Below, one piece after another: positions 13,322 to 21,595 of a stretch of 50,663 bases of DNA (position 1 is its first letter; every line of letters starts with the position of its first letter). The position numbers and the translations under genes were made by a program. The stretch is from Methylophilaceae bacterium. Its GTDB lineage: Bacteria; Pseudomonadota; Gammaproteobacteria; Burkholderiales; Methylophilaceae. The stretch covers positions 1 to 50,663 of the forward strand of contig JAFMCM010000010.1 in the NCBI GenBank assembly GCA_017857755.1. The letters run 5' to 3'. The notes under the pieces were generated by a model that had not been told where the DNA came from, did no database searches, and worked only from the letters and a program-made list of their open reading frames with translations.

Positions 13322-15307
13322 ATGATTCATGGTTCCACGGCATTACATATTCCAGCGCTATCGGATGCCGGTACGCAGGCATGGATAGCGGCTTTATCCT
13401 CGCAATTCCCGCCATCTGCTGTTGATCTGATTCATCAAGCTTGCCAATTAGCTAGCTTGGCTTATGCGGATCATACTGAGCAGACTGGATTGCCATTAAT
13501 GCATCATGCAACTGGTACGGCAGCCATTCTGATGAGTTTGAATTTGGATGCAGAAACAATTACTGCAACCATTTTATACGCCACACCGCGCTTTATTGAT
13601 AATTGGCAAGAAACGCTTAAAAGCCGCTTTGGACCGCAAGTAACGGGCTTAGTCGCTGGCTTACTACAAATTGCGCAAGTCGAAGCATTTGGTTCACAAG
13701 AAACCCAGCAACTTAAAGAAAAAACCAAAAACGCACAGGCCAAGCAGGTCGAAAGCTTACGTAAAATGTTGTTGGCAATGGTGCAAGATATTCGCGTAGT
13801 GTTAATCAAACTAGCAGAACGCACGCACACTTTACGTAATCTAGGCAATATTGGGCCAGCACTGCAACAGCGCATCGCTCAAGAAGTGCAAGGCGTTTAT
13901 GCCCCCTTGGCTAATCGACTCGGCGTTTGGCAGCTTAAGTGGGAGATGGAAGATTTATCGCTACGCTATCTTGAACCCCAACTATATAAGGAAGTCGCTC
14001 AATCATTAGACTCGCGCCGAGTTGACCGTGAACACTATATTCATCAAGTCGAGGCACAACTCAAACAACAGCTCACGCAAGCTGGTATTAAAGCAGACAT
14101 TTCGGGTCGCCCTAAACACATCTATAGCATTATTAATAAAATGCGACGCAAGCACCTCCATTTTAACCAGCTGTTTGATGTACGCGCTGTGCGTATATTG
14201 GTTAATTCAATTGAAGAATGTTATTCCGCCCTGAGTGTTGTACAAGCACTCTGGAAACCCATCCCTGGCGAGTTTGATGATTATATTGCCAAACCTAAAA
14301 GTAACCATTACCGCTCTTTGCACACTGCTGTTCATGGACCAGAAGACTTGGCCATCGAAGTCCAAATTAGAACCCATGAAATGCACACCTTCTCTGAGTT
14401 AGGTGTAGCCGCGCACTGGCGTTACAAAGAGGGCGGTAAAACCGATGTAGCACTAGATGAAAAAATTAAGGTCTTGCGCCAAATTCTAGCGTGGAAAGAA
14501 GAGCCAAAAGACAACGGCGACTTACTACAAACATTCAACACAGAACTGTTCCAAGACAATATTTACGTCTTTACGCCACAGGGTAAGGTAATAGATTTAC
14601 CTAAAGATGCAACACCGATTGATTTTGCTTATGCTTTGCACACCGACTTAGGGCATAGAACGCGAGGCGCTAAAGTAGATGGCCATATCGTGCCACTAAA
14701 CTATCGACTACAGAATGCGCAACATGTTGAAATTCTCACCCATAAAATCGGTGTTCCGAGTCGAGACTGGTTAAGTTCAAGTTTGGCTTATTTAAAAACC
14801 AATAGTGCCCGCGCCAAAGTCAGATATTGGTTTAAACATCAACATGCAGAAGCGCATATTTCACATGGTCGGAGTAAATTAGATAAAGAACTCCACCGTG
14901 CGGGGGTGGGGACGATTAACCAAGAGAAGATTGCACAAAAACTGCATTTTCATAAACTAGACGATTGCCTAAACGCAATTGGTCGCGGCGACATTACTGA
15001 ACATCAAATCGCCTTTGCTATACAAGAAATCGTAAACCCAAAACCGTTAGAAAAGCCGCAACATCCTGTGTCCAATAAATCAATGGCACCAATCGGACCC
15101 ACAGAAGTGATATTAGCTGGCATAGGCAACTTGCAAACCAATATCGCTAAATGCTGTAAACCTGCTTTTCCAGATAACATCGTCGCTTATGTGACGCGTG
15201 ACCGCGGGGTAACTGTCCATCGGGAAAACTGTACTTTTATTCATCGCTTAGAAACTAATCGGCACGACCGATTGCTCACCGCCACTTGGCGACAAGTCAA
15301 AAAGTAA
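13322..15307 (+). CDS. relA: Monofunctional (p)ppGpp synthetase RelA lacking the ACT/RRM domain
   Basis: This 661-residue protein has a pseudo-hydrolase domain (about 35-190) in which the catalytic HD pair is replaced by YA (ILYATPR, 86-87), so it should not degrade (p)ppGpp. The synthetase domain (about 260-370) carries EFDD (317-320), the acidic signature of monofunctional RelA, and KSNHYRSLHT. A TGS domain (about 412-475), a helical region and the zinc-finger domain (C611, C612, H633, C637) follow. The protein then ends, about 80 residues short of E. coli RelA (744), with no C-terminal ACT/RRM domain. The next gene is convergent only 9 bases away, so no out-of-frame remnant fits. It probably makes the stringent alarmone at stalled ribosomes with altered control. 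Confidence 0.92.
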   Translation: MIHGSTALHIPALSDAGTQAWIAALSSQFPPSAVDLIHQACQLASLAYADHTEQTGLPLMHHATGTAAILMSLNLDAETITATILYATPRFIDNWQETLKSRFGPQVTGLVAGLLQIAQVEAFGSQETQQLKEKTKNAQAKQVESLRKMLLAMVQDIRVVLIKLAERTHTLRNLGNIGPALQQRIAQEVQGVYAPLANRLGVWQLKWEMEDLSLRYLEPQLYKEVAQSLDSRRVDREHYIHQVEAQLKQQLTQAGIKADISGRPKHIYSIINKMRRKHLHFNQLFDVRAVRILVNSIEECYSALSVVQALWKPIPGEFDDYIAKPKSNHYRSLHTAVHGPEDLAIEVQIRTHEMHTFSELGVAAHWRYKEGGKTDVALDEKIKVLRQILAWKEEPKDNGDLLQTFNTELFQDNIYVFTPQGKVIDLPKDATPIDFAYALHTDLGHRTRGAKVDGHIVPLNYRLQNAQHVEILTHKIGVPSRDWLSSSLAYLKTNSARAKVRYWFKHQHAEAHISHGRSKLDKELHRAGVGTINQEKIAQKLHFHKLDDCLNAIGRGDITEHQIAFAIQEIVNPKPLEKPQHPVSNKSMAPIGPTEVILAGIGNLQTNIAKCCKPAFPDNIVAYVTRDRGVTVHRENCTFIHRLETNRHDRLLTATWRQVKK

Positions 15308-17327: not shown

Positions 17328-18641
17328 CTAATGCTGTTGCTCGCCATCTGCGTAAATCATACGAACTTCACGTTGTGGAAACGGTATCTCAATACCGTTC
17401 TGTTGTAATGTTTCAAGAATAATTAAATACAAATCTCCGCCCACTCGATTCTTACCATCATCTATCCCTTCCATCCAAAACTCAACAAACATATTGATGC
17501 CATTATCGCCAAAACTATCAATTTCACAATCTGGGCGTTCTTCAATTGGCCTTTCTTCTCCACTTAATACTTTTGGATGTGCAGCCACCGCAGATTTAAT
17601 CAAATCCACCATACTGCGTACATCCGTTTGATAAGAAACAGAAAAATCCACGCGATAACGTTGCTTCTTATGTTGATGCGTCCAATTGGTAAAAGTGCCT
17701 GTAATAAACTTTTCGTTCGGTACTACGATGTCTTTACCATCAAACGTTTCTAAGGTTGTTGAACGCATACCCAACGTTGTCACCAACCCCGACCGACCAT
17801 CTTCAAGCTCTACATGATCGCCGACGGTGAGGGATTTATCTAAAATAATAATCACGCCAGAAATAAAATTAGAAGCAATCGCTTGTAAGCCAAAACCCAA
17901 ACCAACGCCAACCGCACCACCAAAAACAGCTAAAGCTGTTAAATTAATCCCCATCAGTTTAAGCAGCAGCAAAATCACTACAAAGATTAAAACAATTTCA
18001 TACAGTTTAGCGAACAACTCTTTTGTCTTAACATCCAAGGCCACCTGGCTACGAATAATATTCTGACCCGTCCGATTCGAGATCCGCCCCAACCAAAAAA
18101 GCAGAGAACCAAAAATAAACAATCGGACAAAGCCATAAACAGAAAGTCTGATATCACCAATGGTGAAAGCAATCGCATCGAGCACCTTAATCACATCGTC
18201 CAATATGCCAATCAAGTGAAAAAAGATAATGGGCATCCCAATCCAACGAAAAGCAATGGCTAGAATGGGTTGTTTCACCAATAAATTAATCGCTGAATGC
18301 GCAAATAACAAAATAGCAACGGCTAAGGCGCCTTGCATCACCCAACCATCTTCTCCGATATACGCACTAAACTCGACCAATGCTCTTAATAAAACAATCG
18401 CAATAATTGGAAATAAAACCTTGCTCGCAAGATCTAATTTTGTATTGGCTGTTTGATCTGAATGCGTTGTATTTATATTTAAAAAAGGTAAATACTGACG
18501 CAATTGCCGTGTGATGAGATAGGCTACTAGATAAGTAGCGACAATCATACTGATTTGAATATAGGTTTCAGTTTGAATAAACACCTGTGTCAACTTTGCT
18601 AGCATATGACTGAATACTGTATCAAAGTGCATATTTTTCAT
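17328..18641 (-). CDS. MscS-family mechanosensitive channel
   Basis: This 437-residue protein has several N-terminal helices, a pore helix rich in glycine and alanine (VFGGAVGVGLGFGLQAIASN, near residue 240) and a beta domain with LTVGDHVELEDGRSG and VPNEKFITGTFTNW, followed by the C-terminal alpha/beta region. It is intermediate in size between MscS (286) and MscK. Such channels release solutes when membrane tension rises. Either ATG 18641 or ATG 18632 could be the start. It follows the aspartoacylase-like gene by 32 bases and precedes tpiA by 3. Confidence 0.9.
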   Translation of the reverse strand: MKNMHFDTVFSHMLAKLTQVFIQTETYIQISMIVATYLVAYLITRQLRQYLPFLNINTTHSDQTANTKLDLASKVLFPIIAIVLLRALVEFSAYIGEDGWVMQGALAVAILLFAHSAINLLVKQPILAIAFRWIGMPIIFFHLIGILDDVIKVLDAIAFTIGDIRLSVYGFVRLFIFGSLLFWLGRISNRTGQNIIRSQVALDVKTKELFAKLYEIVLIFVVILLLLKLMGINLTALAVFGGAVGVGLGFGLQAIASNFISGVIIILDKSLTVGDHVELEDGRSGLVTTLGMRSTTLETFDGKDIVVPNEKFITGTFTNWTHQHKKQRYRVDFSVSYQTDVRSMVDLIKSAVAAHPKVLSGEERPIEERPDCEIDSFGDNGINMFVEFWMEGIDDGKNRVGGDLYLIILETLQQNGIEIPFPQREVRMIYADGEQQH

Positions 18642-18673: not shown

Positions 18674-19759
18674 CTAAGTGTTATCAAAGATGGAGATTGG
18701 CTTTATCTCAATCTCATATAAACGGTCTTCTGCAATATTGCTTTCGTGCGCCGCAATTTCTCCAGCAACTGCACCCATTCTCTCAAATCTAGCGATATGA
18801 AACAACGCTTCACCTTCATTAACCAAAGCAAGTTTACTGATACAAATAATAATGCCCTCCGTTTGCGCTGTTAACACCACCTCTTCATCACCAAAAGGCG
18901 AAGAAATCACCCCCAAAGGATCGCCTGACTTAACCCGAGCACCCAACTGACATAAAGGTCTAAAAATCCCATTAAAGGTTGCCCTAAACCAACTATTAGA
19001 ACGCGCTATATACGGTTCCGCTTGCACCGTGACAACCCGTTTCGATGGCAACATACCAAGGTTTCTCATCACACTCACGATTCCACGTAAACCAGTGACG
19101 ATACAAGTTTCTGATAAACGCAAGGCCTCTCCTGCTTCATAGGTAATCACTGGAATCCCAAGTTCACCAGCCTCATAACGTAAACTATTTTTAATCAATT
19201 CGGAATTCAATATCACTGGAATTGAAAACCCTTCTGCTAATGCCTTTACGGCTGGATTTTCTAGCGCGGCTCGCACCTGTGGCAAATTATCACGATTCAC
19301 AGCAGCGGTATGTAAATCAATCACATGGGTCGCGCGCTTAACAAGCTCATTAAAGAATTTATGCGCAATACGAGAAGCCATCGAGCCATTTTTACTACCA
19401 GGAAAACAGCGATTCAAATCGCGCCTGTCAGGCAAATAACGGGATTGATGGATAAAACCAAACAAATTCACCACGGGCACCAACACCAAAGTGCCATGCA
19501 ATTTATCCAAACCACGAATACTGCTCATGCGCCTAATAATCTCAACTCCATTTAACTCGTCGCCATGAATAGCGGCACAAATTAACAATACTGGTCCTGG
19601 ACGTTTACCGTGAAACACCTCCACTGGCATATCTAAAGGGGTATGGGTATATAACTGTGCCGTTGGCAAGTCAAACCGTAATTGCTGTCCTGGCGCAATC
19701 ACATGCCCAGCAATTTTAAATGGTTGCTGCTTGATCTTTTCAGCCTTCAATTTAAGCAC
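18674..19759 (-). CDS. Succinylglutamate desuccinylase/aspartoacylase-family zinc hydrolase
   Basis: This 361-residue M14-like metalloenzyme has zinc ligands in AAIHGDELNG (H65, E68) and IDLHTAA (H150), an arginine-containing RDLNRCFPG loop and a probable catalytic glutamate in ITYEAGE (E208). The C-terminal third looks like a barrel-sandwich domain (EVVLTAQTEGIIICIS). Family members cleave N-acyl amino acids or amide bonds. Such genes are commonly found next to RimK-like ATP-grasp ligases, as here (36-base gap), which suggests it trims or recycles the ligase product. The true substrate is unknown. Confidence 0.85.
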   Translation of the reverse strand: MLKLKAEKIKQQPFKIAGHVIAPGQQLRFDLPTAQLYTHTPLDMPVEVFHGKRPGPVLLICAAIHGDELNGVEIIRRMSSIRGLDKLHGTLVLVPVVNLFGFIHQSRYLPDRRDLNRCFPGSKNGSMASRIAHKFFNELVKRATHVIDLHTAAVNRDNLPQVRAALENPAVKALAEGFSIPVILNSELIKNSLRYEAGELGIPVITYEAGEALRLSETCIVTGLRGIVSVMRNLGMLPSKRVVTVQAEPYIARSNSWFRATFNGIFRPLCQLGARVKSGDPLGVISSPFGDEEVVLTAQTEGIIICISKLALVNEGEALFHIARFERMGAVAGEIAAHESNIAEDRLYEIEIKPISIFDNT

Positions 19760-19795: not shown

Positions 19796-21007
19796 CTAAT
19801 CATTTTCGCCCACAAAGTAATGCGCATCATCCGTCTGTAAATCTTGTACTTTTGGTCTTCTTCTACGCATGGTTTTATCTGGAATCATCCCGCGCATCGA
19901 GTCTAACTTACCGAAGCATAACAATTTATCATTGGACTCTATCACCCGCTCAACCCGTGGGTTTGGAATCGCTTTTGCACCACGAAACAAAGTCAGTACA
20001 TTAATATCTTTTTCTACCAGCATGATCTCTTGAATGGTTTTACCAACAAACTCTGAACCCTCAGGAATCACAATCTCACTCACACCATAGCCCTTACTCA
20101 CTGTTAGCCGCTGTCGAATATCAATTTCAGGAAAATCGACCTGAGCAGAGACATAATCAATCACCGCACCCGCAATATCTAAACCTGTTGCCGTCTCTAT
20201 TCCCTCCAGCCCGGGCGATGAGTTCACCTCCATAATCTGTGGGCCATTCTTACCTTCCAACATATCAACACCAGCCACTTGCAACCCTAAAATCTGCGCC
20301 GCACGCACTGCTGTTTCACGATACTGCTCATCTAATTCAACAGCCTCAGCCAAGCCACCTCGATGCACATTGCTACGAAACTCTTGACCTTGCGCCACAC
20401 GGCGCATCGCAGCAACCACTCGATCACCCACCACAAATGCACGAATATCTTTACCCTTACTTTCAGCCACAAATTTTTGAATCAACACATTTTGTTTTTG
20501 GCTTTGCAATAACTCAATAATCGATTCAGCCGCATGAATGGTTTCAGCAAGTAATACGCCAATACCCTGCGTACCTTCAATCAACTTAATTACAACTGGT
20601 GCACCACCAACGCGTTGAATCGCTGGAATCACATCTTTTCTATCTCGCACAAATGTGGTTCTTGGTATACCAATTTGGTGACGACTTAAAATCTGCAAGC
20701 TACGCAATTTATCGCGCGAATTACTAATCCCATGCGCGCTATTTGCACAGAACACGCCCATCTCTTGAAACTGTCGCACTACCGCCGTTCCAAAATAAGT
20801 GATAGAAGCGCCGATTCTTGGCAAGACAGCATCATAATCACTCAACACCTTTTGTCTAAAATACAAATCAGGCATACCCTGCTGCAAATCAATCGAAAAC
20901 TTAAGCGTGTTTAATACCTTAACCGTATGCCCTCTTTGTAAAGCCACCTCTTTTAAACGTCGCGTACTATAAGAATTGGGGCCACAAGATAAAATGGCTA
21001 GTTTCAT
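19796..21007 (-). CDS. rimK: RimK-type alpha-L-glutamate ligase fused to a TrkA-C (RCK_C) domain
   Basis: This 403-residue ATP-grasp ligase covers the whole of E. coli RimK (300 residues): N-terminus MKLAILSCGPNSYSTRRL, ATP-binding VVIKLIEGTQGIGV (about 138-151), DIRAFVVGDRVVAAMRR, and the metal site IMEVNSSPGLEGIE (258-271). RimK adds glutamates to the C-terminus of ribosomal protein S6. About 100 extra residues follow; 309-368 fits a TrkA-C/RCK_C domain (EIVIPEGSEFVGKTI, IPNPRVERVIESNDKLLCFG), a small-ligand domain best known from potassium channels and transporters. A basic patch, RRRRPK (381-386), comes after it. Fused control by a nucleotide or ion is inferred. Confidence 0.92.
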   Translation of the reverse strand: MKLAILSCGPNSYSTRRLKEVALQRGHTVKVLNTLKFSIDLQQGMPDLYFRQKVLSDYDAVLPRIGASITYFGTAVVRQFQEMGVFCANSAHGISNSRDKLRSLQILSRHQIGIPRTTFVRDRKDVIPAIQRVGGAPVVIKLIEGTQGIGVLLAETIHAAESIIELLQSQKQNVLIQKFVAESKGKDIRAFVVGDRVVAAMRRVAQGQEFRSNVHRGGLAEAVELDEQYRETAVRAAQILGLQVAGVDMLEGKNGPQIMEVNSSPGLEGIETATGLDIAGAVIDYVSAQVDFPEIDIRQRLTVSKGYGVSEIVIPEGSEFVGKTIQEIMLVEKDINVLTLFRGAKAIPNPRVERVIESNDKLLCFGKLDSMRGMIPDKTMRRRRPKVQDLQTDDAHYFVGEND

Positions 21008-21049: not shown

Positions 21050-21080
21050 TTGAACATTACGCTACTCATATCCATATAAT
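21050..21080 (+). promoter_or_regulatory. Probable rimB promoter
   Basis: A perfect -10 element TATAAT (21075-21080) is preceded by TTGAAC (21050-21055) with a 19-base spacer. It sits in the 72-bp region between divergent rimK and rimB. A start of transcription near 21087 would exclude the TTG at 21080 as the initiation codon of rimB. Confidence 0.5.
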
Positions 21081-21115
21081 TGAAGTATATTGAAACCTTT
21101 TCCAAATCAAAGACC

Positions 21116-21595
21116 GTGACCAATCAACCACTTAATCAAACGCAACTGCTAACCTTTGGTTGGCGCGAATGGGTCAAACTCCCCGAGCTTGGCTTACCCG
21201 CAATTAAAGCCAAAGTCGATACTGGTGCGCGCACCTCAGCTTTGCATGCTTTCAATCTACGTCCCTTCACTGAAAACGGCATCCAAAGGATTGAGTTCAG
21301 CATACACCCTAAACAAAAAGATTCACAAACCATCGTAACCTGCCAAGCAGATATTCTCGACAAACGCATCGTCAGTGACTCTGGCGGTCACAAAGAAGAG
21401 CGTTGGGTCATCACAACAATGCTCGCTGTCGGTGAACACCAATGGCCTATTGAAATGACCCTCACCGCCCGTGACCATATGAAATTTAGAATGTTACTAG
21501 GCAGAACTGCCTTAGAAAACCGAGCCGTAGTAGACGCAGCAACCTCCTACCTAGCCGGAAAGAGGCTGCTTAAACGGAAGCTAAACGTTGAATAA
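21116..21595 (+). CDS. rimB: RimB-like retropepsin-type protease (putative ATP-dependent zinc protease)
   Basis: This protein of about 159 residues contains FGWREWVKLPELGLPAIKAK followed by VDTGARTSALHA, whose DTG is the aspartic-protease triad, and MLLGRTAL, the hydrophobic-Gly motif of retropepsins. The family (DUF785, annotated ATP-dependent zinc protease) includes RimB, which works with RimK to control S6 glutamylation in Pseudomonas. The frame opens at TTG 21080, but the promoter there makes GTG 21116 the better start; no ATG exists before the conserved core. It is divergent from rimK and ends only 2 bases before the convergent cyoD. Confidence 0.82.
   Translation: MTNQPLNQTQLLTFGWREWVKLPELGLPAIKAKVDTGARTSALHAFNLRPFTENGIQRIEFSIHPKQKDSQTIVTCQADILDKRIVSDSGGHKEERWVITTMLAVGEHQWPIEMTLTARDHMKFRMLLGRTALENRAVVDAATSYLAGKRLLKRKLNVE

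Follow-up and report, generated by a model that had tools for sequence, protein, structure and literature searches.

A RimK-type glutamate ligase joined to an RCK_C domain in a Methylophilaceae bacterium

The window, i.e. the whole stretch of 50,663 nucleotides analysed here, encodes a complete RimK joined to an RCK_C domain. The gene is listed among the window ORFs at positions 19796-21007 of the minus strand, has an ATG start and encodes a 403 amino acid protein, and its nature as a real fusion is confirmed by the profile searches below. RimK-RCK_C is a variant of a known enzyme family. In our judgement there is about an even chance that the protein is a RimK-type ATP-dependent alpha-L-glutamate ligase carrying its own RCK_C switch, gated by the ionic or osmotic state of the cell. 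Domain content and gene context suggest, as our best inference and not as a result, that the cell's ionic state acts as the switch for glutamate tailing.

Domains and predicted fold of the fusion protein

Both RimK domains score well over the Pfam cut-offs (Rimk_N 121.1 bits against 26.4, RimK ATP-grasp 199 against 21). The full protein reaches 260.7 bits with TIGR00768 (cut-off 143.4) and narrowly, with 332.3 bits against 331, passes the S6--L-glutamate ligase equivalog PRK10446. The solved RimK structures align with residues 1-287 only and the NCBI S6-ligase profile is 300 positions long, so that the end of E. coli RimK near residue 300, as given in the preliminary description of this DNA, holds. 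Beyond the core, PF02080 matches the window protein at E=8.1e-11 with 42.1 bits (gathering cut-off 27), and the last 104 amino acids searched alone match it at E=1e-11 with 45 bits. The preliminary description had read residues 309-368 as a TrkA-C (RCK_C) domain fused to RimK and proposed a PF02080 search and a structure prediction of the C-terminal segment; both were run, the fusion was borne out and the bounds proved right within 3 residues. The NCBIfam TrkA model matches residues 310-374 at 3.8e-5 with 22.6 bits, far under its own cut-off of 407. Pfam detected neither an RCK_N/TrkA_N domain nor a RimB domain within the fusion protein, and in none of 84 fusion loci did the ORF with the highest-scoring RimK also encode a RimB domain. 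An Rfam scan of the window gave nothing above threshold. The features of the locus are collected in Table 1.

Table 1. Domains of the fusion protein and neighbouring genes, in window coordinates
Feature	Position	Strand	Basis and remarks
RelA/SpoT-type protein	13322-15307	+	A few genes from the fusion; neighbour in 3/84 loci including the window, not conserved
MscS-type mechanosensitive channel (PF00924)	17328..18641	-	Pfam; next gene after AstE/AspA, same strand
AstE/AspA-type metallohydrolase (PF24827)	18674..19759	-	Pfam; next gene downstream, after a gap of 36 bases; GTG taken as start codon; HGDE motif at residue 65
Arg-rich C-terminal tail, residues 372-403	19799..19894	-	R383, P385 and L390 at least 98% conserved in 78 relatives
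RCK_C / TrkA_C domain (PF02080), residues 310-371	19895..20080	-	Pfam and predicted fold
Linker, residues 287-309	20081..20149	-	Highest conservation in the fusion family, mean 0.94, n=78
RimK ATP-grasp catalytic domain (PF08443), residues 98-286	20150..20716	-	Pfam, 7.5e-59
Rimk_N pre-ATP-grasp domain (PF18030), residues 1-94	20726..21007	-	Pfam, 2.5e-35
RimB-type retropepsin-like protease (PF05618)	21080..21595	+	Pfam; divergent from the fusion; DTGA motif; TTG start assumed

The C-terminal 117 residues were modelled with AlphaFold2 from an alignment of 26 relatives (A4), with a mean pLDDT of 67.6 and values of 68-88 for ten-residue blocks across the domain. Of the 50 Foldseek matches listed for this model, 48 carry the name of an RCK protein from a K+ channel or K+ transporter; the exceptions are 1vct, annotated as putative potassium-channel related, and 2bkn, of unknown function. 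The best PDB matches include KtrC, MthK, KhtT, KtrA, GsuK and TrkA. On realignment the model gave Z 11.3 with KtrC (1.6 A over 80 residues), Z 12.2 with GsuK (3.8 A), Z 11.1 with KhtT, Z 9.0 to 10.5 with TrkA and Z 8.7 to 9.0 with BusR. The C-terminus is thus predicted to have the RCK_C fold, and it is best matched by RCK_C domains from K+ systems. Modelling of the full-length protein gave low confidence (mean pLDDT 60.3), for which reason no domain arrangement is claimed, although RimKs were its best structural matches.

Compared to known systems, the core is alike throughout to the solved RimKs of E. coli and Pseudomonas (7qyr, 7qys, 5zct, 4iwx; 45-52% identity). With the RCK_C domains of KtrA/KtrC, KhtT, TrkA, MthK, GsuK and BusR the C-terminus has both profile and predicted fold in common, but in the fusion the domain sits on a soluble ATP-grasp ligase. 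The RimBK hybrid of Desulfotalea, as described in PMC11957791, is likewise a RimK fusion, but carries the protease at its N-terminus while here an RCK_C domain is found at the C-terminus. No description of a RimK-RCK_C fusion was found in the open-access literature among the matches listed, though a 2009 review on the gene contexts of ATP-grasp ligases might hold one, and the words "TrkA" and "RCK" do not occur in the main text of the 2025 rim survey (PMC11957791).

Conservation, relatives and distribution

Fifteen of the seventeen tabulated functional positions (S7, S14, R64, S68, K100, K141, D187, R189, R203, R211, H215, R216, D248, E260 and N262) are identical in 44/44 fusions and in 40/40 plain RimKs. 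We take positions 100, 141, 178, 187, 203, 248 and 260 to be functional sites of RimK. For the P. aeruginosa enzyme, residues 7, 8, 14, 64, 68, 189 and 262 are reported to contact the glutamate chain, and 211, 215 and 216 to line the active site (PMC10092738). The two remaining positions are not constant. Position 178 is Lys in all 44 fusions and Glu in 38/40 plain RimKs, and position 8, Arg in 37/40 plain RimKs, is in the fusions Cys (26), Arg (16) or another residue (2), with Cys in the window protein. Apart from these two positions, the RimK core keeps its catalytic and glutamate-binding residues; in the window protein these include S7, S14, R64 and S68 of the N-terminal domain and K100, K141, R189, D248, E260 and N262 of the ATP-grasp domain.

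Conservation along the protein was computed for 78 of the 84 fusions; L023, L056, L057, L058, L072 and L125 were left out, their alignments not starting at residue 1 or their gene being masked by a longer opposite ORF. Means are 0.94 for the linker, 0.85-0.90 for the core and 0.79 for the RCK_C domain. Within the latter D334, N336, P348-P350 and R354 are kept in at least 98% of the 78 and are candidate residues of a pocket other than that of BusR. In a maximum-likelihood tree computed by a quick method from the cores of 44 of the 78 fusions, 40 plain RimKs and two RimBK hybrids, all fusion cores lie on one side of a branch of length 1.47 (SH-aLRT 100) and the RimBK hybrids on the plain-RimK side, while the window protein groups with Cycloclasticus (SH-aLRT 94). 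The fusion is conserved, and its cores form an old-looking clade apart from plain RimK, which has no RCK_C domain.

In a set of 61 genomes, made up of the source genome and 60 relatives of which some are incomplete, the fusion was found in the source genome only. In a class-level set of 369 genomes, 164 had a match at E <=1e-60 and four, the source genome included, had a full-length fusion, the other three being 82-84% identical to that of the window. The remaining matches among those listed share no more than 57% identity and stop by residue 306, or extend past it only through stop codons; as the list, though limited in length, is sorted by E value, it is unlikely to conceal another fusion. 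When 84,980 species genomes were scanned with the alignment of the C-terminus, 258 stretches proved to encode a relative of it; the scan relied on two exact peptide patterns, by which more distant relatives may be missed. Of the 258, the 80 best were examined. Going by record titles, most belong to Gammaproteobacteria or Planctomycetes, and other groups are represented by single MAGs; the gammaproteobacterial carriers include Microbulbifer, Cycloclasticus, Granulosicoccaceae, Halieaceae and Neptunomonas. Many of the carrier genera are presumably marine. Out of these 80, 79 hold the fusion gene in one ORF, and in L072 it is split over two; in L056 and L057 the ORF as called begins 22 residues in. 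PF02080 (E <=0.001) was detected together with both RimK domains in all 52 aligned relatives scanned (alignment A3).

The closest relatives of the window protein among the best 80 are those of Cycloclasticus, with 90.6 and 88.3% identity. As these closest matches lie in Cycloclasticus and the gene is absent from close relatives of the source genome, horizontal acquisition by the source genome is likely; the GC content, 0.39-0.45 over 13-27 kb, gives no sign of it. AstE matches at E <=1e-20 were found in 3/40 relatives, the best being 51% identical. Plasmids and phages were considered as carriers and rejected: none of 37 plasmid records with a match at E <=1e-60 covers 80% of the query, the 30 matches listed ending by residue 298, and none of 19 phage records with a match at E <=1e-20 does so, these ending by residue 313. 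One Cycloclasticus genome has, about 8 kb from its intact copy, a truncated second fusion copy (G431:C11:60811-61332; 174 aa matched, 91% identical).

Gene neighbourhood

Downstream of the fusion lie the AstE/AspA-type and MscS-type genes, and divergent from it the gene of a RimB-type protease, which scores 122.7 bits with the NCBIfam RimB model, under the cut-off of 200. No EAL domain was found among the window neighbour genes scanned with Pfam. Within 8.1 kb of the fusion, in 84 loci, RimB is present in 46, AstE in 38, MscS in 27, CorA in 15 and MgtE in 9; within the same distance of plain RimK, in 40 loci, the counts are 34, 32, 3, 8 and 1, so that RimB and AstE are rarer beside the fusion than beside plain RimK. 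In 16/84 fusion loci, some of them on short contigs, none of the five neighbours is found. The plain-RimK loci were taken from the top of the class-level match list where the contig had room and are all of the window's class, unlike the fusion loci, which also include Planctomycetes; G316 contributes two of them and the fusion-bearing genome G215 one, and two are shortened by contig ends. The neighbour names were confirmed with Pfam on seven representatives for CorA, MgtE and MscS and on the window genes for AstE and RimB.

MscS lies near the fusion in 11/31 genomes, against 0.83 expected from the number of MscS genes per genome (P 2e-10, a value which presumes independent genomes, whereas relatives are not independent), and in 6/26 against 0.64 when Microbulbifer and the window are left out. 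Compared with plain RimK loci the excess has p 0.003 (0.0035 within 3 kb), and without Microbulbifer the difference is weak, with counts of 17/73 against 3/40 and p=0.041, or 0.095 when only neighbours up to 3 kb away are counted. CorA and MgtE show no significant difference between the two types of loci (p 0.81 and 0.17). The association of fusion loci with ion channels looks real; it is common in part, for CorA, to plain RimK loci and is somewhat stronger with the fusion for MscS. The link to ionic state drawn in the preliminary description is therefore backed by the neighbourhood, though only partly as a property specific to the fusion. That ionic neighbours set the fusion apart holds only in part, CorA and MgtE giving no significant difference from plain RimK loci and the MscS excess being modest.

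Some individual loci deserve mention. In L118 (3844-9919), and also in L083 and L094, genes for MgtE, CorA, MscS, RimK-RCK_C, RimB and AstE form one cluster. In two Cycloclasticus loci (L050:9595-11004 and L053:9602-11011) a RimBK hybrid gene, its identity checked with Pfam in L050, follows the fusion downstream at a distance of about 1.2 kb, with AstE in between, so that two differently fused RimKs share one cluster, and MscS and CorA in these loci could belong to the RimBK-type gene instead of the fusion. In L068, L078, L086 and L117 the fusion is followed on the same strand, after about 85-95 bases, by the gene of a protein with a transglutaminase core (Pfam-confirmed in L078), which resembles the inactive transglutaminase RloB of the rlo operon. 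The CorA-type genes near plain RimK in 8 of 40 loci leave room for a Mg2+ link of RimK in general.

Function, substrate and ligand

The preliminary description put forward that the protein has a regulatory domain of its own, which fits the profile, the predicted fold and the conservation of the C-terminus; gating by a ligand is what we infer beyond these. In the mechanism we propose, the RCK_C domain, being of a type that pairs up, would connect the protomers within the RimK tetramer. Binding of an ion or small ligand of the cell interior that reports the ionic or osmotic state to RCK_C would open or close the active site, which would set the amount of poly-alpha-glutamate made or attached. 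RimB, a polyglutamate endoprotease, and the AstE/AspA-type hydrolase would cut back or remove the product, and the MscS channel encoded nearby may be part of the same osmotic programme. A more specific version, which we put forward tentatively as a possibility, is that K+ entry or the ensuing nucleotide state is read by an RCK_C dimer which sets poly-alpha-glutamate tails, ribosomal or free, with RimB/AstE-type erasers and with MscS, CorA and MgtE in the same regulon. If true, the K+/glutamate osmotic response would be coupled directly to protein or polymer modification.

The RCK_C domain could alternatively be a dimerisation device only. A purely structural domain which fixes the oligomer, on an ordinary RimK modifying S6 and regulated by RimB alone, is unlikely in our estimate without being negligible. 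Such a role would agree with BusR, in which RCK_C is reported to be dimeric even without ligand (PMC8517857), and the narrow pass of the S6-ligase equivalog and the fifteen positions shared with plain RimK speak for an ordinary enzyme. Against it stands that RimK, reported to be tetrameric in crystals, forms tetramers in Pseudomonas without any RCK_C (PMC10092738). Of 30 fusion genomes, 18 carry another RimK type and 12 do not (E <=1e-50; two of the 12 with a second fusion copy), and this co-occurrence, together with the deep separate clade of the fusion cores, argues for a separate job of the fusion.

The C-terminus of S6 bears on the same alternative. S6 of the source genome ends in Glu, as an S6 substrate would have it, but a terminal Glu is present in only 5/12 hosts with the fusion as sole type, and it is also found in three genomes of the window's genus (G002, G004, G005) whose best fusion match is only E 2e-16 or weaker. 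The other counts are 11/18 for genomes with the fusion and another RimK, 15/29 for genomes with plain RimK only (30 taken, one with no S6 match), and 5/29 for relatives with no close RimK, these 29 being those with the locus retrieved out of 37 with a match besides the source genome. The termini being unrelated to the fusion in the four genome sets, terminal Glu was dropped as a substrate marker. Ribosome modification, which the preliminary description had taken as the function, is a candidate function only: the functional positions agree with it, but a terminal Glu of S6 does not go with the fusion. Possible substrates of the fusion are S6, another protein or free poly-alpha-glutamate.

That the enzyme modifies no protein and makes free poly-alpha-glutamate for K+/glutamate osmotic balance is rather improbable in our view. 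RimK is reported to make the free polymer, and more of it with RimB, a synthesis which is expected to deplete the glutamate pool and disturb osmolality (PMC11957791); the MscS, CorA and MgtE neighbourhood and the uninformative S6 C-terminus are also in its favour. Against this, the frequent Cys at position 8 means that chain binding may differ in either direction.

As to the ligand of the preferred ionic switch, the preliminary description had pointed to second messengers, a link which is weakened by the genome content. In the source genome (99.4% complete) no match was found to a diadenylate cyclase (DAC) domain, for which 11/14 controls were positive and the search covered this genome only, so that other fusion hosts may differ, nor to a GGDEF domain, for which 8/14 controls were positive. 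RimABK of Pseudomonas, reported to be c-di-GMP-regulated (PMC7343187; PMC4741518), resembles the fusion locus in its RimK with a RimB neighbour; unlike it, the fusion host has no GGDEF match and has AstE and MscS genes beside the fusion. The best PDB sequence matches of the C-terminus, all weak, are BusR (E 0.009), KhtT (0.019) and KtrA (0.028), families with c-di-AMP-bound structures, and 7b5u, 7agv and 4xtt among the RCK matches are such structures. The c-di-AMP pocket of BusR is reported to consist of I153, G154, N157, V158, H160, A164, T165, I166 and P181 (PMC8517857; PDB chain numbers were shifted by two to match). In the weak alignment at E 0.009 the corresponding window positions are I325, Q326, M329, L330, a gap, I335, N336, V337 and V352, so that most of the pocket is not kept: its polar rim is missing, as are A164 and P181. 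It is therefore very improbable, despite these matches, that the fusion is a c-di-AMP receptor of the KtrA, KhtT or BusR kind in which c-di-AMP gates glutamate ligation, and for this host both c-di-AMP (no DAC match, pocket not kept in the weak alignment) and c-di-GMP (no GGDEF match) were set aside. The ligand in this host is probably neither of the two, and the remaining candidates are a mononucleotide (ATP/ADP, NAD(H)) or a cation. The source genome has one other RCK_C match, a putative Kef-like antiporter.

The fusion is a direct and testable candidate for control of RimK outside the c-di-GMP-using Pseudomonas, by the cell's ionic state. It spans Gammaproteobacteria and Planctomycetes, is often found beside ion channels, and would let the deletion of one domain probe the regulation of polyglutamylation. 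The orthology group K05844 is, we assume, rimK. With K14940 it belongs to the glutamate-modification genes reported to be commoner in brackish than in marine genomes (PMC10219603), by which a marine role is not simply favoured. Weak side evidence comes from a Cs+-resistant strain of E. coli, in which RimK A160G is reported among three nonsynonymous changes (PMC10831881).
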